64,000 nucleotides of DNA from Novipirellula herctigrandis (GTDB lineage: Bacteria > Planctomycetota > Planctomycetia > Pirellulales > Pirellulaceae). Both the position numbers and the translations under genes were made by a program. Where the stretch lies: positions 4,631,078 to 4,695,077 of the forward strand of contig SJPJ01000001.1 of the NCBI GenBank assembly GCA_007859835.1. The letters run 5' to 3'. The notes under the pieces were generated by a model, which saw nothing but the letters and a program-made list of their open reading frames with translations, searched no databases and was not told the DNA's origin. Positions 37,262 through 56,611 of the stretch are shown piece by piece. Within the stretch, counting starts at the first letter, position 1, and each line of letters begins with the position of its first letter.

Positions 37262-39640
37262 ATGAAAGCAACATTGCTTAAGAGCGTGCTTAGCATTTGT
37301 GCGACATTAGTGTTCGCAGTAAGTGTTCAAGCCCAGTGTGGTTCGTGCGGAGGTTGCGTAAGCAACTCCGGTTGTGTCTCTAGCGACGGTGGCGTCGTGA
37401 TGGGCAGTGGTTCGGGCGCTATCGTTGATGGCGCTTCGATGGGTGCAGGGGCTTGTGGCCCGGCTGTGTCTTATCAAACGCAGACCGTCATGCGGTCGCA
37501 AATGGTCACCGAGACTCAGATGGTCCCAACGACCACCTACCAACGTCAAACGCAGACCCGTATGCGTACGGTCAGCAAGCAAGTCGCACGAGTTGAATCT
37601 CGTTCGCAAGAGTACACGGTTAATGTTCCGCAAACTCAAACGCGTACCGAGTCGTACACGGTTCAAGTTGCGGTTCCTTACACCGAAGAGCAACCCTACA
37701 CGGTTCAAGTTCCCGTTACAACGCAAGTTGAACAGAGCTACCAAGTATCGGTTCCTTACACTGAGCAAGTGTCGCAGAGCTACACCGTTACGGTTCCTTA
37801 TACCGAAAACGTTGAGCAGTCTTACACGGTTCAGGTTCCCGTAACCGAAACCAAGACTCAGAACTACATGGTCAATGTTCCTTACACTGAGCAAGTAGAG
37901 CAGAGCTACACGGTCAGCGTTCCTGTCCAAAAGACTCGTGAAGAATCGTACACAGTATCGGTTCCTTACACCGAAGAAGTTGCACAGAACTACACCGTAA
38001 GTGTTCCTGTTACTTCGACTCGCACTGAGAGCTACCAAGTATCGGTTCCTTACACCGAAACGGTTACTCAGAACTACAACGTCAATGTTCCTTACACGGA
38101 AACAATGACCCAGAACTACACCGTCAACGTTCCTTACACCGAAGCGGTTGAGCAACCTTACACGGTATCAGTTCCTGTTACTGAGCAAGTTGCTCAAAAC
38201 TACACTGTCAACGTTCCTTACACCGAACAAGTCGCTCAAAGCTACCAAGTTCGCGTTCCTGTGCAGCAGACCCATACTGCATACCGAACCGTTTCCACTT
38301 GCGTGCCTGTTACAACGATGAAGTCGGTTACCAAGGACATGGGCAGCTACCAATGTCAAGCGGTTGCCGTTAGCGGACGAAGCTCGGCTGGTCGCAGTCG
38401 TGGCGGCATCCTCGGCGGATGTGGCCTTCTTGGCAAGCGTGGTGGCGGCTGTGGCGGTTGCGGTTCATGCAAGAGCTGCTCGTCCTGCTGCGGTTGTGGC
38501 GATGCTTGCGGTGGATGTAGCACTGGATGTGGTGCGGGTGCTGGATACGGTGCTGGAGCTTCGGCTGCCTGCGGTCCAACCATCGCTTACCGTCGCGTCT
38601 ATGTTCCAAACCCTGTAACGGTTCAAGTTCCTGCGACGTCATACCAACGTCAAACGAGCCGGGTTCCTTATACCTACACGACGACCAGCTACACCTGCCA
38701 AACGCAAACTCGCATGGTACCTGTTACCAAGATGCGAAGCGAAACTCGCACTCGTATGGTCAACGTGACCAAGTACACGACCGAGCAACGCATGCGTACG
38801 GTTCAGGTTCAAAAGTGCCGTCAAGAAACTCGTACTCGTGAGTACCAAGTTACGAAGTGCCGCACCGAAACTCGCTCCCGCGAAGTTCCTGTCACTCGCA
38901 CTCGTTTGGAAACTCGCACCCGCGAAGTTCCTGTGACCACGATGACCACGGAAACCCGTACTCGTATGGTTCCTGTGACCAAGACTCGTATGGAAACCCG
39001 TACTCGTTCGGTTCCTTACACCGAAATGAGCACTGAAACTCGTACCCGTATGGTTACGGTTCAAAAGTGCCGTCAAGAAGAACGTACTCGTGAATACCAA
39101 GTCACCAGCTACAACACGGAAACAAAGACCCGTAGCGTTCCTGTGACTCGCACGCGTACTGAAAATCGTACTCGTATGGTTCCTGTCACCAAGACTCGTA
39201 TGGAAACCCGCACCCGCATGGTTCCCCAAACGACAATGACGACCGAAACCCGCACGCGTACGGTCAACAAGACTCGTATGGAATCGCAAGAGCGAAGCCG
39301 CGAAGTCAGCTACACCGTTAATGTTCCGGAAACTCGTACTCGTAATTACAACGTTACGGTTTACGACACGGTTCAAGAAGAAGTGCCTGAAACTTACAGC
39401 GTTTGCGTTCCTGTTCAGTCGATGAAGGCTGTCCAAGTTCGAAAATGCGTTCAAGTTCCATCCACGATCCAAGTCCCTGTCTACAGCTCGCCAGCATCAG
39501 TAATCTCTTCTGGTGGTAGCGTGATGGGTGGCGAAGTCATCAGTGGTGGCTACAGCGAAGGTGCTGTTATCCAGTCGGCTCCAATCATGGAGTCGGCTCC
39601 GATGGCAACCGGTGCTGGTTGCACAAGCTGCGGAAACTAG
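37262..39640 (+). CDS. YTV-repeat surface protein (planctomycete-specific)
   Basis: Exported 792-residue repeat protein. A signal peptide (about residues 1-24) is followed by a Cys/Gly-rich stretch. Residues about 118-340 hold some 13-14 copies of a 16-17-residue unit around VPYTEQVEQSYTVSVP. Residues about 380-440 are Gly/Cys-rich (CGGCGSCKSCSSCCGCG). Residues about 460-715 hold a second repeat series built on TRTRMVPVTKTRMETRTR with many arginines. The end is Gly/Ser-rich and Cys-poor until CTSCGN. These are YTV-domain proteins known from Planctomycetes, thought to belong to the cell surface. No catalytic motif is visible. The second series is strongly basic and the first nearly neutral. 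GGAGGG precedes the ATG, and a perfect terminator follows, so the gene is transcribed alone. Confidence 0.92.
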   Translation: MKATLLKSVLSICATLVFAVSVQAQCGSCGGCVSNSGCVSSDGGVVMGSGSGAIVDGASMGAGACGPAVSYQTQTVMRSQMVTETQMVPTTTYQRQTQTRMRTVSKQVARVESRSQEYTVNVPQTQTRTESYTVQVAVPYTEEQPYTVQVPVTTQVEQSYQVSVPYTEQVSQSYTVTVPYTENVEQSYTVQVPVTETKTQNYMVNVPYTEQVEQSYTVSVPVQKTREESYTVSVPYTEEVAQNYTVSVPVTSTRTESYQVSVPYTETVTQNYNVNVPYTETMTQNYTVNVPYTEAVEQPYTVSVPVTEQVAQNYTVNVPYTEQVAQSYQVRVPVQQTHTAYRTVSTCVPVTTMKSVTKDMGSYQCQAVAVSGRSSAGRSRGGILGGCGLLGKRGGGCGGCGSCKSCSSCCGCGDACGGCSTGCGAGAGYGAGASAACGPTIAYRRVYVPNPVTVQVPATSYQRQTSRVPYTYTTTSYTCQTQTRMVPVTKMRSETRTRMVNVTKYTTEQRMRTVQVQKCRQETRTREYQVTKCRTETRSREVPVTRTRLETRTREVPVTTMTTETRTRMVPVTKTRMETRTRSVPYTEMSTETRTRMVTVQKCRQEERTREYQVTSYNTETKTRSVPVTRTRTENRTRMVPVTKTRMETRTRMVPQTTMTTETRTRTVNKTRMESQERSREVSYTVNVPETRTRNYNVTVYDTVQEEVPETYSVCVPVQSMKAVQVRKCVQVPSTIQVPVYSSPASVISSGGSVMGGEVISGGYSEGAVIQSAPIMESAPMATGAGCTSCGN

Positions 39641-42131: not shown

Positions 42132-42492
42132 AGCTGGAGTGGTGAAGGCAGTGTTCATGATCACCGTTTGACCCTCAGGGCAGATCAGAAAATCACGGAT
42201 AGACAGCTCGAATTTCCGTCATGATCCGATCATGGGATTTCGCGATGGGGTCGTTCCATTTCGAAGAACCGGGCAGGCGAGAAAAAAATAATTTCCAACG
42301 GGATCTTGCCGATTGGTCTATGGGAAAATGAACATCATCCATGTGCCTTTAGGGCGTTGCGGGACCATTACCGAAATAATTGCCGGATGACTCTTTCATC
42401 CGTCCTTCCCTCTTGTAAACTTCGAAAGTCTCAGATCGGCGGACTGGGCAACATTGTGAGCGATTCTCTTCTTTTCTCGTTCGTTGTTCCCG
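42132..42492. other. Intergenic region before the ATP-grasp cluster, about 360 bases
   Basis: No coding region, RNA gene or clear hairpin seen. It should contain the promoter of the ATP-grasp/alpha-E/transglutaminase operon, but I do not see a convincing one. Confidence 0.55.
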
Positions 42493-44025
42493 ATGCAAAA
42501 CGAAATACCATCGCAAAGCCAATTCCAGTCGATCCCCCGGCAGTCGATCGTCGCACCCAAGTTGGAGTCCTACCAGACCGACGGATTCTTCGACGAACTT
42601 GTTGACGAACACACGATGGCCCGCCCCGATGCCGAGATGCTGGTGCAATTAATCAACCGCATTCCGGCAGGGGAATTGCTTCGGCGTCAACGTTCGATCG
42701 AACGGTCACTTTACCAAATGGGAATCACATTTACGGTCTACAGTGACAACTCCGGCACGGAAAAGATCATGCCGTTTGATGTGATCCCTCGGATTGTTTC
42801 GGCGATGCTTTGGCATCACATCGAAGCGGGATTGCGACAACGTATCCGAGCGCTGAATCGCTTTTTGTCCGATATCTATGGTGACCAAGCGATCGTCAAT
42901 GACGGGATCATTCCTAAAGAGTTGATTGATTCCTGTCCCGCTTTTTTGCCACAGTGTGTCGGCTTGAAACCGCCACGGGATGTTTGGTGTCACATCACTG
43001 GCACGGATTTAGTCCGCGACAACACAGGGGCGGTCTATGTGCTCGAGGACAACCTGCGATGTCCCTCGGGCGTTTCATACGTACTGCAAAACCGCCACGT
43101 CATGAAACGAAATTTTCCGCAAGTATTTGGCGCTTCTCGAGTTCGTCCAGTAAACGATTATCCATCGAGGCTGTACGGTATGCTTCGTTCGATGGTGCCG
43201 TGGGAAATTGACAATCCTACGGTCGCTGTTTTGACACCGGGCGTGTTCAACAGCGCCTACTACGAGCACTCGTTTCTTGCTCAGCAGATGGGTGTCGAGT
43301 TGGTCGAAGGACGAGACTTAGTCGTCCAAGATGACTTCGTGTACATGCGAACGACCGATGGGTTACAGCAAGTTGATGTGATCTATCGGCGTGTAGATGA
43401 CACGTTTTTGGACCCTGAAGTCTTTCGCAAAGATTCAGCACTCGGCGTCGCCGGTTTGATGCGAGCCTATCGTGCTGGCAATGTGGCGCTCGCAAACGCA
43501 CCGGGTACCGGGGTAGCCGATGACAAAGTGATCTATGCATTTGTTCCGCAGATGATCGATTACTATCTCGGTGAACAACCCATTCTTGCCAACGTGCCGA
43601 CTTATGTTTGTCAACAGGAAGAAGACCGCAATTACGTGCTTGATCATTTGGACGAATTGGTCGTCAAAGCCGCTGGCGAGTCGGGCGGCTACGGCATACT
43701 AATTGGGCCCCATGCAACGGACGATGAGAGGGCCGAGTTTGCCGCAAAGATTCGCGAAAACCCACGGAACTACATTGCACAACCAACATTGCAACTTTCT
43801 CGCGTTCCGACGTTGGCTAACGATACGATCGAAGGAAGGCATGTCGATCTACGTCCTTATATTTTGTATAGCGGTCCGGACGACGTATGGGTGATGCCAG
43901 GCGGATTGACTCGTGTCGCACTTAAGAAAGGTTCGCTAGTGGTTAACTCATCGCAAGGCGGCGGCAGCAAAGACACTTGGGTCGTTGCCGAAGCAGGTCA
44001 GCCCGTCGCAAGCTCCAACTCCTAA
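42493..44025 (+). CDS. Circularly permuted type 2 ATP-grasp protein (stand-alone)
   Basis: Predicted ATP-dependent carboxylate-amine ligase with a circularly permuted ATP-grasp fold (formerly DUF404/DUF407). Recognised stretches: RSIERSLYQMGITFTVY, PFDVIPRIVSAMLWHHIEAGLRQRIRALNRFLSDIYG, HITGTDLVRDNTGAVYVLEDNLRCPSGVSYVLQNR (the metal and ATP-binding region), DVIYRRVDDTFLDPE, and VKAAGESGGYGILIGPHA. The ATG at 42493 is used; the longest frame begins at a TTG three codons earlier. It is the first of five collinear genes, with the alpha-E gene 58 bases later (overlapping in the longer frame). Family members occur beside alpha-E and transglutaminase-like genes and are proposed to form peptide or amide bonds on unknown substrates. 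Confidence 0.92.
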   Translation: MQNEIPSQSQFQSIPRQSIVAPKLESYQTDGFFDELVDEHTMARPDAEMLVQLINRIPAGELLRRQRSIERSLYQMGITFTVYSDNSGTEKIMPFDVIPRIVSAMLWHHIEAGLRQRIRALNRFLSDIYGDQAIVNDGIIPKELIDSCPAFLPQCVGLKPPRDVWCHITGTDLVRDNTGAVYVLEDNLRCPSGVSYVLQNRHVMKRNFPQVFGASRVRPVNDYPSRLYGMLRSMVPWEIDNPTVAVLTPGVFNSAYYEHSFLAQQMGVELVEGRDLVVQDDFVYMRTTDGLQQVDVIYRRVDDTFLDPEVFRKDSALGVAGLMRAYRAGNVALANAPGTGVADDKVIYAFVPQMIDYYLGEQPILANVPTYVCQQEEDRNYVLDHLDELVVKAAGESGGYGILIGPHATDDERAEFAAKIRENPRNYIAQPTLQLSRVPTLANDTIEGRHVDLRPYILYSGPDDVWVMPGGLTRVALKKGSLVVNSSQGGGSKDTWVVAEAGQPVASSNS

Positions 44026-44083
44026 CGAACGCCACAAAGGCTTTCAGAGCGAAGCAAATAGGAACTTTCCGCGAGTTCCACTC

Positions 44084-45070
44084 ATGACCCGAATCCCCAT
44101 TTTCACGCTTTCACCGACTATGCTTTCTCGCGTCGCCGAATCAATTTATTGGATGAGCCGCCAAGTAGAGCGAGCCGAGAATCACGCTCGATTCTTGGAA
44201 GTTACGCTAAACTTGATCCTCGACCAACCCGAAGATGTAGTTGACCCTTGGGAACCCCTTGTCCAGGTTACTGGCGATACCGCTTGGTTTTTAGAAAAGT
44301 ACGGTCCCCCGAATGCTCAAAACGTAGTCAAATTCTTGGCGTTCGATCTGGAATACCACAGTTCGATGCTAACGTGTTTACGAGCAGCAAGAGAAAACGC
44401 AAAGTCCGTTCGCGAATCGCTGTCGTCTGAGTCATACGAACAATTGAATGAGTTCTATCACTTTGTTCAACATGCAACGAGTGAGCAATTGACCGATCCT
44501 ACGGCAGCGTTTTTCGACAGTGTTCGACGGCACGCTTTGATGTGGTCGGGAACGCTCGACAACACCATGGCGCATAACAAGGCGTGGCACTTTGCCAATG
44601 TTGGACGGTTGCTTGAGCGAGCAGACAAAACGTCCCGCATCCTTGATGTCAAGTATTTCAATTTGCTGCCGCGTATCGAAGATGTTGGTACGGCAGTGGA
44701 TGACTTGCAATGGTCAACGCTGCTGCTGGCGATTAGCGGATTTGAGGCCTACCGTCGTGATCACCATTTGGTGGACCTCGAAAAGGTTGTCGAATTCTTT
44801 TTGTTTCATCGCACGTTTCCTCGTTCGATTCTGTCCTGTGTTGCCGGAGCGGATTGGTCTTTGTACGAGATCAGCGAATCGTCTCATGAAACGGTTCCAC
44901 GAGAGGCCCGACAAAAAATCGCTGCGTTGAAGCACCGCCTCTCTCGCACCAACGTCAAAGAGGTACTTGCGGGTGGCATGCACCAATTCATTGATTTGCT
45001 TCAAGGCGAGCTAAATGAGATTGGCAATCTTCTAAATCACGACTACTTCAACCAACCAAGTTCTACATGA
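44084..45070 (+). CDS. Alpha-E domain protein (DUF403, stand-alone)
   Basis: All-helical alpha-E protein, about 328 residues. Hallmark: LSRVAESIYWMSRQVERAENHARFLE near the N-terminus, and later HFANVGRLLERADKTSRILDVKYF, a second copy of the ER.E/ER.D pattern. I place the start at ATG 44084; ATG 44120 (MLSRVAES) fits the family equally well. Catalytic activity is unknown; the glutamates are thought to matter. It follows the stand-alone ATP-grasp gene and overlaps the transglutaminase-DUF2126 gene by 4 bases (ATGA), so the genes are translationally coupled. Confidence 0.92.
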   Translation: MTRIPIFTLSPTMLSRVAESIYWMSRQVERAENHARFLEVTLNLILDQPEDVVDPWEPLVQVTGDTAWFLEKYGPPNAQNVVKFLAFDLEYHSSMLTCLRAARENAKSVRESLSSESYEQLNEFYHFVQHATSEQLTDPTAAFFDSVRRHALMWSGTLDNTMAHNKAWHFANVGRLLERADKTSRILDVKYFNLLPRIEDVGTAVDDLQWSTLLLAISGFEAYRRDHHLVDLEKVVEFFLFHRTFPRSILSCVAGADWSLYEISESSHETVPREARQKIAALKHRLSRTNVKEVLAGGMHQFIDLLQGELNEIGNLLNHDYFNQPSST

Positions 45071-48000
45071 CCATTCGCGTTTCGCTTCATCACAAAACAT
45101 CGTATCGCTACCCGCGACCGATCACCTTAGGCCCTCAGTTGGTGCGATTGCGGCCGGCTTACCACGGGCGGACAAAAATCGATGCGTACAACTTGAAGGT
45201 GGAACCCGAGGACCACTTTGTCAATTGGCAACAAGACCCGTTCGGTAACCCGATTGCAAGGTTTGTGTTCAACAAAATGGCGACGGAATTCACGGTGACC
45301 GTCGATTTGACGGCCGACATGACCGTGATCGATCCATTTGATTTCTTCGTGGAATCGTACGCCGAAAAATGGCCGTTCCGTTACCAAGACGATGTCAAGC
45401 TGCAATTGGCCCCATATCTCATTTGCAGCAAACCAACAGGAAAATTTGCTGAGTGGGTCGATTCACTTCCTACCAAATCCGATAGTATCAATGACTTTTT
45501 GGTCAACGTGAATCAGTTGGCTCAAAAACGAATCAAGTACTTGCTGAGGATGGAACCTGGTGTCCAAACCCCCGAGGAAACCTTGACACTCGGCAGCGGA
45601 TCATGCCGTGATTCGGCTTGGCTACTTGTCCAAACCTTTCGCCAAATTGGGATCGCAGCACGCTTTGTTTCTGGATACTTGATCCAATTGACTGCCGATG
45701 AAAAGCCGATCGAAGGCCCCGAAGGACCGGCCGAGGATTTTTGTGACTTACATGCTTGGACCGAAGTCTTTTTGCCCGGTGCTGGCTGGGTAGGGCTCGA
45801 CCCAACAAGCGGGCTTTTTGCAGGCGAAGGCCACATTCCACTCGCGTGCACACCGTCGTTCGATGGTGCTGCGCCGATCAGCGGAGGACATGAACCGTGC
45901 GATGTCGAGTTCGACCACGAGATGAAGGTCGTGCGCATTCACGAAGACCCGCGAGTCACCAAGCCATACTCCGATGGCCAATGGGACGATATCATGCGAG
46001 CGGGTGAGAAGATTGACGAGCGATTGATTGCCGGGGATGTCCGCTTGACCACGGGTGGCGAACCCACGTTTGTTTCGATCGACAACATGGACGATCCACA
46101 GTGGAATACCGATGCGGTCGGCGAAGAAAAGCGTGTCCTTAGCAACGTACTATTGCTGCGACTTCGCGACAAATTTGCGCCGGGTGGCTTGCTGCATTAC
46201 GGCTTAGGCAAATGGTATCCCGGTGAATCATTACCCCGTTGGGCATTGACATGTCTATGGCGCCGTGACGGCGAACCGATCTGGAATGATCCGAAGTTCA
46301 TGGCTGACGAAGGTACCGACTATGGGTACACCCACGAAGATGCAGATCGGTTTGTCCGCCATTTGGCAAGTGAATTGAACATCAATGCCAAGATGACGTT
46401 CCCAGTCTTCGAAGACGTTTTCCATTACTTATGGCGCGAGAACCGCTTGCCGGTCGACGTCGATCCAACTGACCCAAAGTTGGACGACCCAAACGAGCGG
46501 TCAATGATGATGCGGACCTTTACAAACGGACTAAGCAAACCGATTGGGTTTGTCTTACCGATTCGCCGAGCATGGTGGCAGACACGTCCGGGTTGGATGA
46601 GCGGACGTTGGCCCGTAAGGAGCGAAAAGATCTATTTGATCCCAGGCGATTCACCGATCGGACTTCGCTTGCCAATCTCGACGCTGCCTAATAGCACCAA
46701 CGTAACGAGTCCGTTTTACACTTCGCCGGCAGACCCATTTGCACCGCGTCCTCCACTACCGCCACTGCCCAAAGGAAATGAAGCGGCTGTTCAATCAGGC
46801 CAATGGGACAGCCAAAGTTCACTTGAATTGCCTGTCAATGAACAAGTACTCGACGAAGAAATCCCCGATGAGTCGCCGACCAGTGAAGACATCGTCAACA
46901 CGGCTCTATGCGTCGAGTGCCGCTATGGTCGCTTGCACATTTTCATGCCACCGACACAGCGGCTTGAGGATTACTTAGACCTCGTCAATGCTGTGGAATT
47001 GACTTGCAAGACGCTGAATATTTCCGTGATTCTAGAAGGTTATCTGCCACCGCCCGATGACCGCATTGAAAATTTCAAAGTTACCCCTGACCCTGGTGTG
47101 ATTGAAGTCAACACGCATCCAACCTCATCATGGGAAGAACTCGCGGACCAGATCGAATCGCTTTACGCGGAGGCTAAGCTGAGTCGACTCGGTGCAGAAA
47201 AGTTCGACATTGATGGGCGGCATACGGGAACCGGCGGTGGCAGTCACATCGTGCTCGGGGGAGCAAAGCCTGCTGACAGCCCGTTCATTCGGCGACCGGA
47301 TCTATTGGCTAGCATGATCCGATTCTGGAACAACCATCCCGCGCTTTCGTATTTATTTAGTGGTCGATTTATTGGCCCGACCAGCCAAGCGCCCAGAATG
47401 GATGAAGCTCGTGTGGATGCCATCTACGAGATGGAAATCGCACTCGCCCAACTCGATACGCTGGAAAATCATCGCCCACCGTGGTTAGTCGATCGTTTGT
47501 TTCGTGACTTGTTGGTTGATTTGACTGGTAACACTCACCGGACTGAAATTTGTATCGACAAACTGTATTCGCCTGATTCTTCGACAGGACGATTAGGGCT
47601 AGTGGAACTTCGTGGTTTCGAAATGCCACCAAATCCGCGGATGAATTTGGCGCAGCAATTGTTGATCCGAGCGGCGATTGCGACCTTCTGGGAGTCGCCT
47701 TGCAAGGACCCACTGATTCGCTGGCAAACGAGCCTCTACGATCGATTCATGTTGCCACATTTCGTTTGGCAAGATTTATGCGACTTGATCGATCAACTGA
47801 ATCGAAGCGGAGCTGGTTTGGATTCACAGTGGTACGCACCGCAATTTGAATTCCGGTTTCCAAAAATTGGAGAGATCAACTACCAGGACATTAGATTGCA
47901 ACTGCGAAGCGGCATTGAACCTTGGTATGTAATGGGTGAAGAACCTGGGGCGGATGGAACAGCGAGGTACGTTGATTCGTCACTCGAACGGATGGAGGTA

Positions 48001-48408
48001 CTAATCGATGGGATGGACGCGACACGGTACGCGGTCACATGCAACGGCATTCGAGTGCCGCTGCATTCAACAGGTGTACAAGGCCAATACGTTGCAGGAA
48101 TCAAGTATCGAGCGTGGCAACCACCACGATGCCTGCATCCTACAATCGGAATCCATACGCCGCTCGAATTCGATTTGGTCGACATGCGGAATCGCCGTTC
48201 GATTGGCGGATGCCGGTATCATGCAGTTCACCCGGCGGGACGAAGCCACGAGATCTTTCCTATCAACGCTGCGGAAGCGGAATCTCGACGTACGGTTCAA
48301 TTTGAAGCAATGACAATGACTGGTGGAACGATCGATGTTCCGTCAATGCCTAAGTTAATCGGACGATGTGAGTATCCGATAACGTTGGATTTGAGACGTT
48401 TTCAATAG
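45067..48408 (+). CDS. Transglutaminase-like and DUF2126 fusion protein
   Basis: Large (1,113 residues) two-part protein. The N-terminal third is a transglutaminase-like cysteine protease fold: an N-terminal beta domain (VSLHHKTSYRYPRPITLGPQ), then Cys180 in GSGSCRDSAWLLVQT, His229 in DLHAWTEVFLPG, and Asp245 in GLDPTSGLF, a complete Cys-His-Asp triad. The C-terminal two thirds is DUF2126: TTGGEPTFVSIDNMDDPQWNTDA, then HIFMPPTQRLEDYLDLVNAVE, GVIEVNTHPTSSWEELADQ, and HTGTGGGSHIVLGGA. The DUF2126 part is suspected to be another ligase-like enzyme (glutamine-synthetase-type fold proposed in the literature). No signal peptide, so cytoplasmic. It overlaps the alpha-E gene by 4 bases and is separated by 119 bases from the next gene. 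Confidence 0.92.
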   Translation: MTIRVSLHHKTSYRYPRPITLGPQLVRLRPAYHGRTKIDAYNLKVEPEDHFVNWQQDPFGNPIARFVFNKMATEFTVTVDLTADMTVIDPFDFFVESYAEKWPFRYQDDVKLQLAPYLICSKPTGKFAEWVDSLPTKSDSINDFLVNVNQLAQKRIKYLLRMEPGVQTPEETLTLGSGSCRDSAWLLVQTFRQIGIAARFVSGYLIQLTADEKPIEGPEGPAEDFCDLHAWTEVFLPGAGWVGLDPTSGLFAGEGHIPLACTPSFDGAAPISGGHEPCDVEFDHEMKVVRIHEDPRVTKPYSDGQWDDIMRAGEKIDERLIAGDVRLTTGGEPTFVSIDNMDDPQWNTDAVGEEKRVLSNVLLLRLRDKFAPGGLLHYGLGKWYPGESLPRWALTCLWRRDGEPIWNDPKFMADEGTDYGYTHEDADRFVRHLASELNINAKMTFPVFEDVFHYLWRENRLPVDVDPTDPKLDDPNERSMMMRTFTNGLSKPIGFVLPIRRAWWQTRPGWMSGRWPVRSEKIYLIPGDSPIGLRLPISTLPNSTNVTSPFYTSPADPFAPRPPLPPLPKGNEAAVQSGQWDSQSSLELPVNEQVLDEEIPDESPTSEDIVNTALCVECRYGRLHIFMPPTQRLEDYLDLVNAVELTCKTLNISVILEGYLPPPDDRIENFKVTPDPGVIEVNTHPTSSWEELADQIESLYAEAKLSRLGAEKFDIDGRHTGTGGGSHIVLGGAKPADSPFIRRPDLLASMIRFWNNHPALSYLFSGRFIGPTSQAPRMDEARVDAIYEMEIALAQLDTLENHRPPWLVDRLFRDLLVDLTGNTHRTEICIDKLYSPDSSTGRLGLVELRGFEMPPNPRMNLAQQLLIRAAIATFWESPCKDPLIRWQTSLYDRFMLPHFVWQDLCDLIDQLNRSGAGLDSQWYAPQFEFRFPKIGEINYQDIRLQLRSGIEPWYVMGEEPGADGTARYVDSSLERMEVLIDGMDATRYAVTCNGIRVPLHSTGVQGQYVAGIKYRAWQPPRCLHPTIGIHTPLEFDLVDMRNRRSIGGCRYHAVHPAGRSHEIFPINAAEAESRRTVQFEAMTMTGGTIDVPSMPKLIGRCEYPITLDLRRFQ

Positions 48409-48444
48409 CTCTTACGAGATTATTTAAAACACAACCATTATGAA

Positions 48445-48456
48445 AATAGTACTATT
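48445..48456. promoter_or_regulatory. 12-base palindrome in the gap between the two halves of the ATP-grasp cluster
   Basis: AATAGTACTATT is a perfect palindrome in an AT-rich 119-base gap, the only gap of this size inside the cluster. It might be an operator or part of a promoter. The match is short and could be chance. Confidence 0.3.
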
Positions 48457-48527
48457 ATCTCGCCTTTGAAACTAAGTTAGAATCCGCGTATTGCACAAAT
48501 AAGTTTCTTTTTCATAGGCACCTGGTC

Positions 48528-51080
48528 TTGTCCTCACCGGTCACCGCATCGTGTTCTCTGAGTCATTATGTGCCAGCGTCGACTCGCTATGATGAATGCA
48601 AGTCGGCGGATGGACAAATCCGTCCGCATTGGCAACCGATTGCGAATTATTTTCAATCTCTCGGTCCCGATGGCTTTCGCGAGCGATCGGCGACGATCGA
48701 TCAATTGATTTACGAAAACGGAACGACTTTCAACGTCGACAGCGACGAAGGACGTTTGGTGCGACCATGGCGTTTGTCGTCCATTCCTTTGGTCATCGAT
48801 TCAACTTCTTGGTCAAAACTCGAATCCGGTTTGACTCAGCGAACCGTGCTGCTTGAAACCGTCCTCGATGATTTGCTCGGCCCACAACGTTTGATAAAAG
48901 AGAAGGTGATTCCGCCGGAAGTCCTTTGGGCAAACCCGTTTTTTCAGCGTGCCTATCACAAATTGCCAAGCGTAGGCGGCAAGCGACTTCATATTACAGC
49001 AACAGATCTGGCGAGAGCGACCGACGGAACATGGTGGGTTACGAGTGACCGAACTCGGGCACCGAGCGGGCTTGGCTATTTGCTTGAAAATCGAATCGTG
49101 ACGTCTCGCGTATTTCCACAGTTGGTTCGTCAATGCAACACGCGTCGATTAGCATCGTTTTTTGATTCACTCCGTCGCCATCTTCGTTCGCTTGCCTCTC
49201 GGATGCGAGACAACCCGCGTGTCTCGCTATTGACGCCGGGGCGTGACAGTTATCGAGATTTTGAAGATGCATACCTTGCTCGCTATCTCGGCTTGACACT
49301 TGTTGAAGGCACCGACTTGGCGGTTCGCGGTGGTCAATTGAACCTTAAAACGCTAGGCGGCTTGTTGCCGATCGAGGTTTTATGGCGTCATGTCTCAGAT
49401 CGAAAATGCGATCCACTTGAACTGGAACCTAATTCGAACAAGGGCGTGACGGGCCTATTGCGAACGATTCGCGAAGAAAACGTGGCGGTGGTCAATTCGA
49501 TCGGCAGCGTAATGGCTCAGACGCCCGCACTGTTACCGTTCTTGCCGGCTGCAAGCCAATTCCTTTTTCAAGAACCGCTGCAACTGCCGAGCATTGCCAC
49601 CTATTGGTGCGGGGGAAAAAAGGAATGTGATTTTGTGCTGCAAAATCTTAACAGCCTGATCATTCGACCAGCATTTGCAGTGACTGGCGCGGCCCCCGTT
49701 GCTCCGTCGGGACTATCCGAATCAGCCAAACAAGAACTGATTGGGGCAATCAAAGCGAAGCCACATGAGTACGTCGCACAGCAAAAACTCAATCACAGCA
49801 CGACGCCGGTTTGGTCCGAAGGAAAACTCGAACCCTGGCATGTTGCACTCCGTAGCTTCCAATTGCAAACCAAAAAAGGGGTAGAAGTACTCCCCGGTGC
49901 ACTTGCGCGGTTAAGTCCGGCCGAACAGCATTTGGAAGAGTCAACGGTGAGTGGCTTGTTGACAATGGATTGTTGGATCTCCAGTAGTCAGCCCGTCGAC
50001 ACGGAAACCACGCTGTTGCCATCTTTCGACGCAGAAATCTCGCTAAAACGCAGCGGTAATGAGTTACCGAGCCGTGTCGCAGAGAATTTGTTTTGGCTTG
50101 GCCGCTATGCTGAGCGTGCTGAAGCGATCACGCGACTTCTAAGAACCACCCTCGTTCGCATTTCTGGCGAAAACCAACTGAATGAGTTGCCTGAGATTCC
50201 ACGACTTTTGGCGGCGCTTGCAGCAATTGGACAGATTGAGCCTGACTATGCGGTCGCCGGTTTGGATGGGAGTTTGCCGAGTGTCGAGAACATGCTTCCA
50301 GATTCGGTCAACGACCCCAATCAACCACGAGGTTTACAAGCAACGATCCGCTCGATTGTGATGAACGCCCGAGCCGTTCGTGACCGTATTTCGATCGATG
50401 CTTATCGGATCATTCAACGCATCGGATCGGATACGATGGATGTGCCAGCGCATACCGATGACAACATGGGCCGACTGATTGAAAAATTGAACCAACTGAT
50501 CACAGACTTGTTAGCGTTTGCTGGGATTGCAAACGAGAGCACGACGCGAACGCATGGTTGGCGATTTTTGCAACTCGGACGACGAATCGAGCGGGCGGAT
50601 CAAACGTCGGAATTACTCGATGCCACGTTGGTTCAACCGATCGAAAACGAAGCAACATTGAGCGAAGCGGTGCTTGACGCTGTCGATAGTCTAATGACAT
50701 ACCGCTCGCGATATTTGAATTTGGTACGCCCTGCACCCGCGATGGATCTGTTGGTGACCGATGAAACCAATCCGCGGTCGTTGCGATTCCAATTGCAGGA
50801 GATCGTTGAGTTGATCATGCAATTGCCTACCGATGCTAAATTGATTGGTTTGGGAGCGGACGAAAAACTGGCGAGTGAGCTATTGCATTGCTTGCGGATG
50901 GCCGATCCCTCTGTACTGAGTGAGATTGATCGCTCAGGGAAACGATCAAATTTGCAACGGTTGCTTCGACAATTGATCGAAGGGTTACCAAGTCTGTCCG
51001 ATGCAATCGCAGCCCGTTATTTGATCCACACTGGTACGGCGCAAGCGTTGACCGGCGTTATCCCCATCGACGTGAACTAG
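48528..51080 (+). CDS. Circularly permuted ATP-grasp and alpha-E fusion protein
   Basis: An 850-residue fusion of the two modules that also occur separately upstream. Residues about 40-490 form the permuted ATP-grasp: RSATIDQLIYENGTTFNV, then ITATDLARATDGTWWVTSDRTRAPSGLGYLLENR, EGTDLAVRGGQLNLKTLGGLLPIEVLWRHVSD. Residues about 505-840 are the alpha-E module: LPSRVAENLFWLGRYAERAEAITRLLRTTL, then GWRFLQLGRRIERADQTSELLDATL. In the ATP-grasp half the sequence equivalent to LEDNLRCPSG of the stand-alone copy is TSDRTRAPSG, so the acidic and Asn positions differ. That may mean an inactive or specialised ligase. The start is uncertain: TTG 48528 opens the longest frame, and GTG 48570 is an alternative. 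The next gene begins 13 bases later. Confidence 0.92.
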   Translation: MSSPVTASCSLSHYVPASTRYDECKSADGQIRPHWQPIANYFQSLGPDGFRERSATIDQLIYENGTTFNVDSDEGRLVRPWRLSSIPLVIDSTSWSKLESGLTQRTVLLETVLDDLLGPQRLIKEKVIPPEVLWANPFFQRAYHKLPSVGGKRLHITATDLARATDGTWWVTSDRTRAPSGLGYLLENRIVTSRVFPQLVRQCNTRRLASFFDSLRRHLRSLASRMRDNPRVSLLTPGRDSYRDFEDAYLARYLGLTLVEGTDLAVRGGQLNLKTLGGLLPIEVLWRHVSDRKCDPLELEPNSNKGVTGLLRTIREENVAVVNSIGSVMAQTPALLPFLPAASQFLFQEPLQLPSIATYWCGGKKECDFVLQNLNSLIIRPAFAVTGAAPVAPSGLSESAKQELIGAIKAKPHEYVAQQKLNHSTTPVWSEGKLEPWHVALRSFQLQTKKGVEVLPGALARLSPAEQHLEESTVSGLLTMDCWISSSQPVDTETTLLPSFDAEISLKRSGNELPSRVAENLFWLGRYAERAEAITRLLRTTLVRISGENQLNELPEIPRLLAALAAIGQIEPDYAVAGLDGSLPSVENMLPDSVNDPNQPRGLQATIRSIVMNARAVRDRISIDAYRIIQRIGSDTMDVPAHTDDNMGRLIEKLNQLITDLLAFAGIANESTTRTHGWRFLQLGRRIERADQTSELLDATLVQPIENEATLSEAVLDAVDSLMTYRSRYLNLVRPAPAMDLLVTDETNPRSLRFQLQEIVELIMQLPTDAKLIGLGADEKLASELLHCLRMADPSVLSEIDRSGKRSNLQRLLRQLIEGLPSLSDAIAARYLIHTGTAQALTGVIPIDVN

Positions 51081-51093
51081 GTTTCTTACAATC

Positions 51094-51999
51094 GTGTCCA
51101 ACGAATCGGTTCGTTATCGTATCGAGCATCGCACAGAATATCGCTACAGCGAGCCGGTGGCGATTTGCCAAAACCAGTTGCGAATGAAGCCATCTTCGCG
51201 GCATGGTTTGATTTGTCATCACTCGCAGATCTCCGTTAGCCCCGCGCCAGATACGGTCACCGAGCACGAAGACTATTTCGGCAACCGTGTCTATTCATTC
51301 GCCATCGAAAAGCTGCATAAAAAATTGGTGGCAATTGCGAAAAGCGAAGTTACGGTTGCGCCCCCTCGGTTTCATTCGCAGTCCCCGTCGCCAACTTGGG
51401 AAACGATCCGAAATGAAACGCGCGATCCCGTAGATGCGCCAGTACGCATCATTCAGGAGTTCCGATTTGACTCGCCTCGTGTGCCCATCAAACAAGAGTT
51501 TGCCGACTATGCGATGGTATCGTTTCAACAAGGACGCGGAATTCTCGACGCAGCGTTGGATCTGACCAAACGCATTCACAAGGATTTTCACTACGACACA
51601 ACGGCGACACACGTCGATACATTGACGACCGACGCATTCAAGTTACGAGCAGGCGTATGCCAGGACTTTGCACATATCCAAATCGCGTGTTTGCGATCGA
51701 TTGGATTGCCAGCCTGTTATGTGAGTGGCTATTTGCGAACCATCCCGCCAGCGGATAAACCACGATTGGTCGGTGCTGACGAATCACACGCTTGGCTGAG
51801 CCTGTACGCCGGCGAGTCGCTTGGGTGGGTCGACTGCGATCCCACCAATGGCTGCTTATGCGGAGTGGATCATATCCCAATCTGTATCGGTCGGGATTAC
51901 GGAGATGTCAGTCCGATGCGTGGAGTCATCATTGGCGGTGGGCAAACGGCATTGAAAGTGAGCGTTGATGTGATGCCAATCGAAGTGAGCCAAATTTGA
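51094..51999 (+). CDS. Stand-alone transglutaminase-like protein
   Basis: Transglutaminase-like cysteine hydrolase/transferase, 301 residues, GTG start. Beta-rich N-terminal domain (YRIEHRTEYRYSEPVAICQNQLRMKP), then the catalytic triad Cys189 (RAGVCQDFAHIQIACLRS), His232 (ESHAWLSLYAG) and Asp249 (WVDCDPTNGC). No signal peptide, so probably cytoplasmic. It closes the five-gene cluster, 13 bases after the ATP-grasp/alpha-E fusion. Members of this COG1305-type group accompany ATP-grasp/alpha-E genes, and may cleave or transfer peptide-like substrates made by them. What follows is on the other strand. Confidence 0.94.
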   Translation: MSNESVRYRIEHRTEYRYSEPVAICQNQLRMKPSSRHGLICHHSQISVSPAPDTVTEHEDYFGNRVYSFAIEKLHKKLVAIAKSEVTVAPPRFHSQSPSPTWETIRNETRDPVDAPVRIIQEFRFDSPRVPIKQEFADYAMVSFQQGRGILDAALDLTKRIHKDFHYDTTATHVDTLTTDAFKLRAGVCQDFAHIQIACLRSIGLPACYVSGYLRTIPPADKPRLVGADESHAWLSLYAGESLGWVDCDPTNGCLCGVDHIPICIGRDYGDVSPMRGVIIGGGQTALKVSVDVMPIEVSQI

Positions 52000-54344: not shown

Positions 54345-55745
54345 ATGTACCATAAAGACTCGCTCCAACAAGACTCTGGGTCAGCCATCTTCTCACTCAA
54401 AGGTCCGAATTTGAGAATTTCGTCTATAAAGTCCGCGGTCTGTATCGCCCTTACCATCACCATTGCCGGATCTAACGGTCGATTGGTCATTGCCGAATCG
54501 GGCTCAACCGATCCGAATTCTAATGTGGCAGAAGTCAAAGTGGGATGGAGCGAATTTCATGGCCCCGCTGGGACTGGTTTTGTCTCGGAAGGAAGTTTGC
54601 CGAAAAACTGGACCGACCAGGAATATGTTTGGCGATATCCCCTTGCTGCATCCGATGTGGGGTCGCCCGTCATAGCAGGTGGCATAATCTATTTCCTCAC
54701 CACGGACCGTGAAGCCAAAACAATCTCACTGGAAGCTGTTCAGCTCGCAACGGGTAGCCCTGTCTTCAAAAAGTCTTTCCCCCAATCAGCTTTTCACGTT
54801 CATAGCCGGAACTCGTTTGCGTCTAGCACTCCGGCCGTGGACGACAAAGGCATCGTCGTTGCGTGGAGCGATTCCGAGCACACCTTCCTAAAATCATTTG
54901 ACATTGATGGGAATGAGCAATGGTCTCGCGACTTCGGAACTTGGCAAAGCCAACATGGTTTCGGGACCTCACCTCGACTGTTTGGTTCAATGGTGTTGCT
55001 GTTCAATTCTCAACAAGCGGACCAATTGCGTCCTGGGGAAGAACCCGGTCAAAGCCGCATGATCGCCGTTAGTCGCGACACAGGTGAAACCCTCTGGGAA
55101 ACACCGCTCGAAACAACGCGAACTTGTTACGGTGTACCTGCGATTTTCGTTGCTCCCGATGGAACCACACAAATCATTGCGGCCAATACCGGCAATGGCA
55201 TGTTTGGACTCGACAGCCAAGATGGTAGGATGTTGTGGAACCTTCCGGTATTTTCAAAGCGTTGTTGCAGCACACCCGTTCTGTATGGAAATTTGGCATT
55301 GGCATCAACCGGAAGTGGCGGTGGCGGAAACGAACTGGTTGCCGTGCGCATCCCAACGTCAGACGCGGAAAAACCAGAAGAGGTTTACCGGATTGACCGT
55401 AGCGCGCCCTATGTTCCAACGTTAGCGGTCAAAGGAAACCAATTTTTCATGGTCGACGACAAAGGCATCGCGTCGTGCCGAGAAATCGAAACGGGAACGC
55501 CGGTTTGGACCAAACGACTTGGAGGAAACTATAGTGCTTCACCGATCATTGTTGGCGACACACTATTGGCAATCAACCTCGATGGCATTGCGACCCTAAT
55601 GGGCACCGGCGACAAATTCGAACCGCTTGGTAAAGTGGACCTTGGTGGTTCGGTCGGTGCAACACCAGCCTTTTCCGATGGCTACTTGGTTCTGCGAGTG
55701 GGTGATGAAATCCGATGTTTGAGTAACCGAAGTGAGTCGGAATAA
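54345..55745 (+). CDS. Exported PQQ-binding-like beta-propeller protein
   Basis: Exported beta-propeller protein. A hydrophobic segment SAVCIALTITIAG (about 30-45 residues in) and a following region suggest a signal peptide. Repeats have the PQQ-like form: SWRYP/VWRYPLAASDVGSPVIAGGIIYFLTTD, FASSTPAVDDKGIVVAWSD, FGTSPRLFGSMVLLFN, FGLDSQDGRMLWNLPVF, SRTIDRSAPYVPTLAVKGNQFFMV. Seven or eight blades fit the length. No PQQ-dehydrogenase active-site motif is obvious, so it may be a BamB-like or binding protein. The ATG at 54345 is preferred over the longest frame (54201), whose first 48 residues are basic and unlike a signal. The stop overlaps the larE start as TAATG. Confidence 0.82.
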   Translation: MYHKDSLQQDSGSAIFSLKGPNLRISSIKSAVCIALTITIAGSNGRLVIAESGSTDPNSNVAEVKVGWSEFHGPAGTGFVSEGSLPKNWTDQEYVWRYPLAASDVGSPVIAGGIIYFLTTDREAKTISLEAVQLATGSPVFKKSFPQSAFHVHSRNSFASSTPAVDDKGIVVAWSDSEHTFLKSFDIDGNEQWSRDFGTWQSQHGFGTSPRLFGSMVLLFNSQQADQLRPGEEPGQSRMIAVSRDTGETLWETPLETTRTCYGVPAIFVAPDGTTQIIAANTGNGMFGLDSQDGRMLWNLPVFSKRCCSTPVLYGNLALASTGSGGGGNELVAVRIPTSDAEKPEEVYRIDRSAPYVPTLAVKGNQFFMVDDKGIASCREIETGTPVWTKRLGGNYSASPIIVGDTLLAINLDGIATLMGTGDKFEPLGKVDLGGSVGATPAFSDGYLVLRVGDEIRCLSNRSESE

Positions 55746-56611
55746 TGAATCTAGTCGAAACGAAAACCACGAAGGAAAATACGAAACGACTCATTGATTA
55801 TCTGCGCCAATTCGATCGCGTGACAATCGCTTTTTCGGGCGGCGTTGACAGCAGCGTGGTTGCTGCTGCTGCAATGCAAGCCGGGCTTGACTCGGCAGTC
55901 GCCGTTACCGGATGGTCACCAAGTGTTTCGCAGTGGCAAATTGATTGGTCCGAACGGATTGCCGATCAAATCGGGATCGATCACCGGGTCGTCAAGACCG
56001 AGGAAGGATCGCAGCCGAACTATATCCGAAACGATGCCAAGCGATGTTTCTACTGCAAAGAATCCCTCTATCGAACGCTTGCTCAGATTGCAGACCAATG
56101 CGACCAGACTGTGCTGATTTCAGGAACCAACGCAGACGACTTAGGAGATTATCGGCCCGGCATCGAAGCGGGAAAACTTGCATCGGTAAAGACGCCCTTG
56201 GCTGATCTCGGCTTCGGCAAAATAGAAGTCCGTGCATTGGCACGATGGTTCAATCTCGAAAACGCGGAGCTGCCCGCTTCCCCTTGCCTAGCGAGCCGCG
56301 TTGCTTATGGTGTGGATGTGACGCCGGAACGATTGGCGCGAATCGAGCAAGCCGAGAATTGGCTTCGCGACCGTGGTTTTAGCGATCTGCGAGTGCGAAT
56401 CCATGCCGACGAATTGGCTCGCGTCGAAGTGCCAGTGGATGAACTATACCGGCTGTTTGATGCGTCACTTGCCGCTGAAATGAACAAGACGTATCGCTCC
56501 CTTGGCTTCCGCTACGTTACGGTGGACACACAAGGCTTACAGTCAGGCAGTTTAAATCGAGCGTTAGTGTCCATTGAAACAAGCGAATCTCGCAAAGGAA
56601 TTTCTCTTTAA
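55745..56611 (+). CDS. larE: ATP-dependent sacrificial sulfur transferase LarE
   Basis: PP-loop enzyme that adenylates the carboxylate of a P2CMN-type precursor and donates sulfur from its own cysteine in biosynthesis of the nickel-pincer cofactor of lactate racemase. The PP-loop is SGGVDSS at residues 31-37, and the sulfur-donor region is LPASPCLASRVAYG near residue 180. Other conserved parts: RCFYCKESLYRTL and DDLGDYRPG. Length 288 is normal. It begins in a TAATG overlap with the beta-propeller gene. No larA, larB or larC is in this window, so partners must lie elsewhere; in many bacteria larE-like genes also serve other sulfur-transfer roles. Confidence 0.93.
   Translation: MNLVETKTTKENTKRLIDYLRQFDRVTIAFSGGVDSSVVAAAAMQAGLDSAVAVTGWSPSVSQWQIDWSERIADQIGIDHRVVKTEEGSQPNYIRNDAKRCFYCKESLYRTLAQIADQCDQTVLISGTNADDLGDYRPGIEAGKLASVKTPLADLGFGKIEVRALARWFNLENAELPASPCLASRVAYGVDVTPERLARIEQAENWLRDRGFSDLRVRIHADELARVEVPVDELYRLFDASLAAEMNKTYRSLGFRYVTVDTQGLQSGSLNRALVSIETSESRKGISL

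Follow-up and report, generated by a model that had tools for sequence, protein, structure and literature searches.

The window analysed in this study, a stretch of 64,000 nucleotides from the planctomycete Novipirellula herctigrandis (contig SJPJ01000001.1), carries five plus-strand genes, g1 to g5, which encode circularly permuted (CP) ATP-grasp, alpha-E, transglutaminase-like and DUF2126 domains. Comparison of gene order and gene content showed that they form two natural units, module A (g1 and g2) and module B (g3, g4 and g5), and that module B depends on module A in a nearly one-way manner. Moreover, the fused ATP-grasp copies, represented here by g4, have lost catalytic residues that the stand-alone copies retain, and are probably pseudo-ligases. 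We give about an even chance to the explanation that module A may be the ATP-grasp catalytic core of a system that makes and breaks amide bonds, to which module B with its silent g4 would be an A-dependent add-on. An earlier note on this DNA had described the five genes in the order found here and on one strand; all open reading frames (ORFs) are present and Pfam confirmed every domain, far over the cut-off.

The loss of catalytic residues was observed in an alignment of 91 stand-alone and 105 fused ATP-grasp domains. They came from 60 regions with CP_ATPgrasp_2 or DUF2126 survey matches, locus L005, the window and loci L114-L196; the phylum survey described below contributed 46 single and 35 fused domains, and plasmid and named-genome loci 45 and 70, a few of these being planctomycete too. 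Single ORFs below 450 amino acids (aa) and fused ORFs below 780 aa were left out. E188, N190 and K348 are each kept in 90/91 stand-alone domains. Among the fused domains N190 and K348 were found in 0/105 and E188 in 1/105 (L187), and no fused copy (0/105) retains the loop glycines 401, 402 and 404 together. This loss spans sampled loci of several phyla. In the window, the stand-alone ligase g1 (42493..44025; CP_ATPgrasp_2, 8.1e-172) has the entire motif set of an active ligase, namely the E-x-N motif (E188-D-N190), K348 and the Gly-rich loop (401-404), numbered from the TTG at 42484 that opens the longest ORF; the earlier note had started the gene at the ATG at 42493. This set is absent from the fused ATP-grasp/alpha-E gene g4 (48528..51080; CP_ATPgrasp_2 2.5e-127, Alpha-E 1.4e-72), where both pairwise and profile alignments place S173-D-R175 at the E-x-N site, P333 at K348 and VTGAA at SGGYG. 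The spacing of D175, E188 and N190 presumably matches that of the Mg ligands in other ATP-grasp enzymes. Because the E-x-N motif and K348 are lost, we regard the fused copies as probable pseudo-ligases. The earlier note had named non-conserved ligase metal sites as counting against its reading; this applies to the fused copies only.

The fused group retains invariants of its own (R457, D497, W499, G473, G196 and D278, each in 105/105), which argues that it is under selection and not merely decaying. Ninety of the single domains formed one clade with a support of 100 in a tree built by a quick method with midpoint root; the split thus predates the sampled phyla or has spread by transfer, and the tree fits either. 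The odd single, ORF 13852 at L115 on a Caballeronia plasmid, lacks the motif residues as well as an alpha-E domain, lies just 3' of a gene for a transglutaminase-DUF2126 fusion (T-DUF2126), a position otherwise occupied by the ATP-grasp/alpha-E fusion, and falls outside the clade on a very long branch of unsure placement. It is unannotated in the record, which has an annotated module A nearby, and is probably the remnant of a decaying fusion. The membership of g4 in the CP ATP-grasp family is evident from its full-length Pfam match and from its fold. Its model (mean predicted local distance difference test (pLDDT) score 86) matched 3n6x, to which g1 is related by sequence, with a template modelling (TM) score of 0.88 by target length, and all 37 matches at E <=0.001 were ATP-grasp enzymes, including glutathione synthetases and Cp1B (rank 17). 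The ER motifs of alpha-E are kept in most single and fused copies; no relative of alpha-E was found in the PDB by sequence below E 0.5, nor any in the g4 fold search. In module A this domain is encoded by g2 (43985..45070 as the longest ORF; Alpha-E, 2.8e-89), and the family consensus, in which proteins commonly begin with MLSRVAE, suggests a true start near 44120.

The dependence of module B on module A was seen in two samples. A search of 294 genomes of the planctomycete phylum with Pfam profiles found CP_ATPgrasp_2 in 72, DUF2126 in 56 and Bact_transglu_N in 69 over the cut-off. For the tally of co-occurrence we used the 71 genomes holding a full-length single ATP-grasp, a fusion or DUF2126, with single and fused copies separated by open-frame length. 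G094, which passed the cut-off only with neighbours added, and fragments below 700 bases were left out, and G160:C283, with an open frame of 787, was assigned manually to the singles. The earlier note had stated that the modules co-occur, and single, fusion and DUF2126 were indeed all present in 51/71 genomes. The others held the single only (13), single and DUF2126 (4), single and fusion (2) or fusion and DUF2126 (1). This last genome, G097, is the sole one of its kind without a full-length single and has a fragment of the family at a contig end. Accordingly, the fusion occurred without a full-length single ATP-grasp in 1/54 planctomycete genomes and DUF2126 in 1/56; the single was found without any part of module B in 13/71. 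Similar results were obtained outside the phylum survey. With a 14-row alignment of T-DUF2126 as query we collected the best 80 loci in named genomes out of at least 586 stretches encoding relatives; being the best-matching ones, they are an uneven sample, drawn from Pseudomonadota, Verrucomicrobiota, Acidobacteriota, Planctomycetota, Desulforhopalus, Flexithrix and others. The genomes of 48 of these loci were searched for single and fused copies. The single was present in 47 of them, though split into two pieces in G295 and G336, and the fusion in 46; only 1/46, the metagenome bin G320, had a fusion without any single. The check for co-occurrence elsewhere that had been proposed with the earlier note thus came out in favour of linked sets.

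Gene order defines the content of module B. The transglutaminase-like Cys hydrolase g3 (45067..48408; C180, H229, D245) is fused to the putative amidoligase domain DUF2126, and is followed by an intergenic gap of 119 bases (48409..48527), then by g4 and by the stand-alone transglutaminase-like Cys hydrolase g5 (51094..51999; C189, H232, D249). In 45/56 planctomycete genomes T-DUF2126 immediately precedes the fusion and is read in the same direction; in 28/56 the single ATP-grasp is no more than 4 kb from it. T-DUF2126, fusion and transglutaminase are contiguous in 65/80 loci and in 30/39 planctomycete survey loci. The earlier note had taken the gap to split the cluster into halves. Its length and AT-rich composition (34% G+C vs 53% for the window) stand; we reject it as a module boundary, because T-DUF2126 travels with the fusion, and place it inside module B. 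The five-gene order of the window was found in 17/80 T-DUF2126 loci and in 15/39 planctomycete loci with T-DUF2126, the window included. Since gene order is conserved in other phyla a chance arrangement is excluded, and since the order recurs across the surveys the cluster is a common cassette and no peculiarity of this genome. In three loci of the window's own family (L075, L076, L098) the single ATP-grasp and alpha-E genes are opposite in strand to the other three genes. They lie more than 1 Mb away in G205 and G226, and on a separate contig in other genomes. We also observed a zinc-ribbon metallopeptidase gene adjoining the cluster in 7/83 loci (L115, L124, L137, L158, L172, L180, L191). 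That of L115 is a Peptidase_Mx, for which the genome of N. herctigrandis has one weak match over the cut-off, distant from the cluster.

Both g3 (Bact_transglu_N, Transglut_core, and DUF2126 with E 0) and g5 (Bact_transglu_N, Transglut_core) contain the Cys-His-Asp triad of transglutaminase-like Cys hydrolases, and the conservation in orthologues that the earlier note had called for was found. Among the planctomycete survey loci, T-DUF2126 keeps the Cys in 39/39 and the His and Asp in 38/39 (one gap), the B-class transglutaminases, to which g5 belongs, keep the triad in 32/32, and the A-class ones, which occur next to planctomycete module A, in 8/8; in the wider set the g3-type triad was invariant (32/32). 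The commonest Cys motifs are GSCRDSAWL for T-DUF2126, GVCQDFAHL for the B class and, judged on 8 sequences, GxCRDLAVL for the A class. The genome of the window (9.5 Mb, 23 contigs) has two CP_ATPgrasp_2 and two Bact_transglu_N matches, all within g1-g5. The latter two read GSCRDSAWL and, in g5, GVCQDFAHI, and neither is of the A class.

Pfam labels DUF2126 a 'putative amidoligase', so that the cluster holds three ligase-type domains and not two as noted earlier. We regard DUF2126 as a putative ligase with a possible glutamine synthetase (GS)-like fold, on the moderate evidence of the g3 model (mean pLDDT 73, predicted TM score 0.65). In a Foldseek search the model matched the transglutaminase-like 3isr first, then gamma-glutamylmethylamide synthetase (E 0.0096, probability 0.91), and further glutamine synthetases, GCS and Dop; ranks 4-50 (47 rows) comprise 25 members of the GS superfamily, 20 diphtheria toxin entries (probability <=0.14) and 2 others. 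The invariant residues of T-DUF2126 (E332, E680, N682, H727, N822, R825, E847, R849) resemble, as we take it, GS motifs. As regards GS itself, the genome has only a weak partial Gln-synt_C match (G000:C1:1873178-1873579, L212) within an ORF of about 348 aa, presumably a type II glutamine synthetase. Two genomes of the same genus likewise gave only weak, partial matches, whereas strong ones were present in the 12 other relatives searched.

The proteasome-like protein Anbu, which is encoded together with ATP-grasp, alpha-E and transglutaminase in the Anbu operon, was also surveyed. PF00227 narrowly misses a planctomycete Anbu (L058; 21.2 bits, just under the cut-off), and for this reason a profile of 5 Anbu sequences was used. 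It identified Anbu in 14/294 planctomycete-phylum genomes. The genome of the window had 0 matches with PF00227 and 0 with the Anbu profile at E 1e-12. Of the genomes with module A alone, 8/13 have Anbu, against 6/58 of those with any part of module B (Fisher p 2.3e-4, by a test that ignores shared ancestry; counted by genus, 7 of 12 on the A-only side). The contrast between Anbu and module B is thus a tendency within one phylum, short of exclusion. In 11/14 Anbu genomes the gene lies within 3 kb of a stand-alone ATP-grasp gene (ORFs of this kind are at L054, L055, L057, L058 and L078); elsewhere it lies about 300 kb away (G176) or on a separate contig (G160). The Anbu relative of G176 (G176:C1:1913322-1914032) contains one in-frame TGA.

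In the explanation that we put forward, g1 would activate a carboxylate as an acyl-phosphate and couple it to an amine, with the alpha-E protein g2 as its partner. Module B would add g3, in which a Cys-His-Asp hydrolase or transamidase is joined to a second, GS-like ligase domain, and g5 as a second hydrolase. The fused protein g4 would have lost its ligase chemistry and would most likely be a non-catalytic partner, i.e. a scaffold, a substrate-holding or a regulatory subunit. We infer that g1 and DUF2126 may be active as ligases, that g4 may be inactive yet functional and in contact with module A, and that the hydrolases may act on the bond made by the ligases and share their substrate. Besides the residue loss and the dependence of module B, the published alanine mutants of Cp1B, the phosphate release by a Yersinia ATP-grasp and the NtrC/sigma-54 dependence of I35_5080-83, all described below, count in favour of this explanation.

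Several observations weigh against this explanation. D175 is kept in 93/105 and K395 in 69/105 fused copies, which leaves room for ATP binding or an altered chemistry. DUF2126 occurs without any fusion in 4/56 planctomycete genomes and 2/48 others. The GS-like match of DUF2126 comes from a model of mean pLDDT only 73 at the E value given above, and hhalign of the whole T-DUF2126 alignment against a GS profile returned a probability of 0.1 and so found no homology. The lack of sigma-54 sites beyond chance in the window, given below, also counts against the explanation. As to Anbu, the 6/58 module B genomes that carry it show that there is no strict exclusion. In one of the planctomycete genomes it lies just beyond T-DUF2126 (G243:C99:20644-21375), and Anbu-like ORFs stand beside T-DUF2126 in 2/83 loci outside the phylum survey (L155, 13456, minus strand; L184, 9153, plus strand). 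In the experiments described in PMC6376114, Anbu of the Yersinia operon showed no specific interaction with the other proteins.

Four further explanations and a variant of our own have to be considered. The earlier note had proposed two active ATP-grasp ligases acting in two stages or in two parallel pathways. We consider this very unlikely: although g4 retains the ATP-grasp fold and single and fused kinds co-occur, the E-x-N motif, K348 and the Gly loop are lost throughout the fused group. Ala at R139, D141, E163 or N165 of the structurally related ligase Cp1B, in the equivalent motif, was reported to abolish or significantly attenuate activity (PMC12568646). It is conceivable, if rather improbable, that the fused domain was neofunctionalised, binding a nucleotide or another ligand or using the conserved x-D-R-T in place of E-x-N for a new chemistry. 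The group-specific conservation of D189 (84/105), R190 (95/105) and D175 agrees with this. However, the group has lost both E-x-N residues, K348 and the glycines of the lid loop, and it is more divergent, with a mean column identity of 42% over the whole fused protein vs 60% for the singles.

Other readings concern what the system is for. A pathway of nitrogen storage or scavenging, in which the cell would build a small amide or polyamide and reclaim it under nitrogen shortage, is possible, with a chance of somewhat under one third in our judgement. In Burkholderia cenocepacia, I35_5080-83 depend on NtrC/sigma-54 and were described as 6.0 to 9.4 fold lower in expression in an ntrC mutant (PMC5491218), and PMC3597751 reports an association of DUF403, DUF404, DUF407 and Bact_transglu_N with domains of urea metabolism in marine metagenomes. 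Only these relatives hint at a role under nitrogen limitation. No metabolite is known, however, and sigma-54 sites (<=2 mismatches) are no more frequent in the window than by chance (36 vs 33 expected), with none in 42132-42484, 5' of g1, which speaks against this role. Protein tagging or turnover, with ligases attaching and hydrolases or Anbu removing or degrading as in the Pup-proteasome system or as proposed for the Anbu operon, seems doubtful to us. Anbu is close to the stand-alone ATP-grasp in most planctomycete Anbu genomes, PMC5666114 and PMC6376114 cite Iyer 2009 for a proposal of peptide synthesis or tagging, and the fold search with g3 lists a depupylase (rank 45, E 0.64). On the other hand, the window's genome lacks matches to PF00227 and to the Anbu profile, no tag gene was identified, and in the work described in PMC6376114 Yersinia and other Anbu proteins did not act as peptidases on any of the substrates offered. 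Hardly more probable is the variant that bacteria of several phyla keep an ancient ligase/pseudo-ligase pair, in which a working ATP-grasp with alpha-E would be joined by a silenced fusion that controls T-DUF2126 or holds its substrate, with module B as an accessory of module A; the Anbu-like ORFs adjoining T-DUF2126 (L155, L184, G243) lower its probability. If it were true, module B would, at least in planctomycetes, tend to take the place that Anbu has in other genomes and would offer the amide-tagging reaction a different outlet.

Our preferred explanation of an ATP-grasp core with a dependent add-on can be set beside known systems. Escherichia coli glutathionylspermidine synthetase/amidase has, as we understand it, a Cys hydrolase and an amide ligase in one chain, an architecture like that of g3; the ligase domain of g3 is the putatively GS-like DUF2126 and not an ATP-grasp, and g3 is not a member. 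The ligases of the glutathione synthetase, glutathionylspermidine synthetase and YgiC type and the fungal Cp1B share the fold of g4 and the E-x-N motif of g1, whereas g4 lacks this motif. The Anbu operon has the same three non-Anbu families as our cluster, and its CP ATP-grasp adjoins alpha-E as g1 adjoins g2; module A equals that operon minus Anbu and minus its own transglutaminase. In contrast to it, the cluster adds T-DUF2126, the fused, probable pseudo-ligase and a second transglutaminase, in a genome where the searches found no Anbu. The ATP-grasp of the Yersinia Anbu operon was reported to release phosphate from ATP (PMC6376114). I35_5080-83, with adjacent locus numbers, likewise encode an ATP-grasp (DUF404/407), an alpha-E (DUF403), a transglutaminase-like and a large transglutaminase-like protein; a fusion is not named in the cited part of PMC5491218, but a B. 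multivorans replicon (L114) has one beside T-DUF2126. The Rlo operon of Pseudomonas was set aside, as its RloB transglutaminase is described as membrane-bound and inactive and its RloC ATP-grasp is likened to RimK, and as the main text of PMC12239564 never mentions 'alpha-E'.

The gene set belongs to a described but uncharacterised kind, in line with the earlier view of a poorly described amide or peptide system. Mycobacterium tuberculosis presumably carries the same kinds of gene, and no paper in the literature searched named three or more of a set of five mycobacterial gene numbers. The proteins have been proposed to form a system of peptide synthesis, modification or tagging, a role given without experimental confirmation in the cited parts of PMC5666114, PMC6376114 and PMC3597751; peptide synthesis is proposed for the operon in PMC5666114. 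We did not meet the motif loss in the fusion, the one-way dependence or the Anbu contrast in the open-licence literature searched, where the phrase 'inactive ATP-grasp' has no occurrence; Iyer 2009, which first put the system forward, may already note inactive copies.

The neighbours of the cluster have no obvious functional link to it. On the 5' side is a gene for a monomeric isocitrate dehydrogenase. On the 3' side are two ORFs, a short one to which no Pfam model matches and one whose HEAT match stays under the cut-off. Further 5', beyond the isocitrate dehydrogenase gene, a 792-aa protein (37262-39640, plus strand) consists mostly of VPYTE/VPVTK-like repeats and Gly/Cys-rich stretches; the opposite strand is also open across two long stretches. 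An ATP-pyrophosphatase-like ORF (55745-56611, plus strand; Asn_synthase in Pfam) resembles, we presume, LarE.

The residue survey shifts the targets for tests: the stand-alone ATP-grasp and perhaps DUF2126 are the ones to assay as ligases, whereas the fused copy should be examined for a role as a partner in binding or regulation. Moreover, the nearly one-way dependence of module B on module A and the relative scarcity of Anbu in genomes with module B yield a wiring diagram that can be tested, for a question that has long been open.

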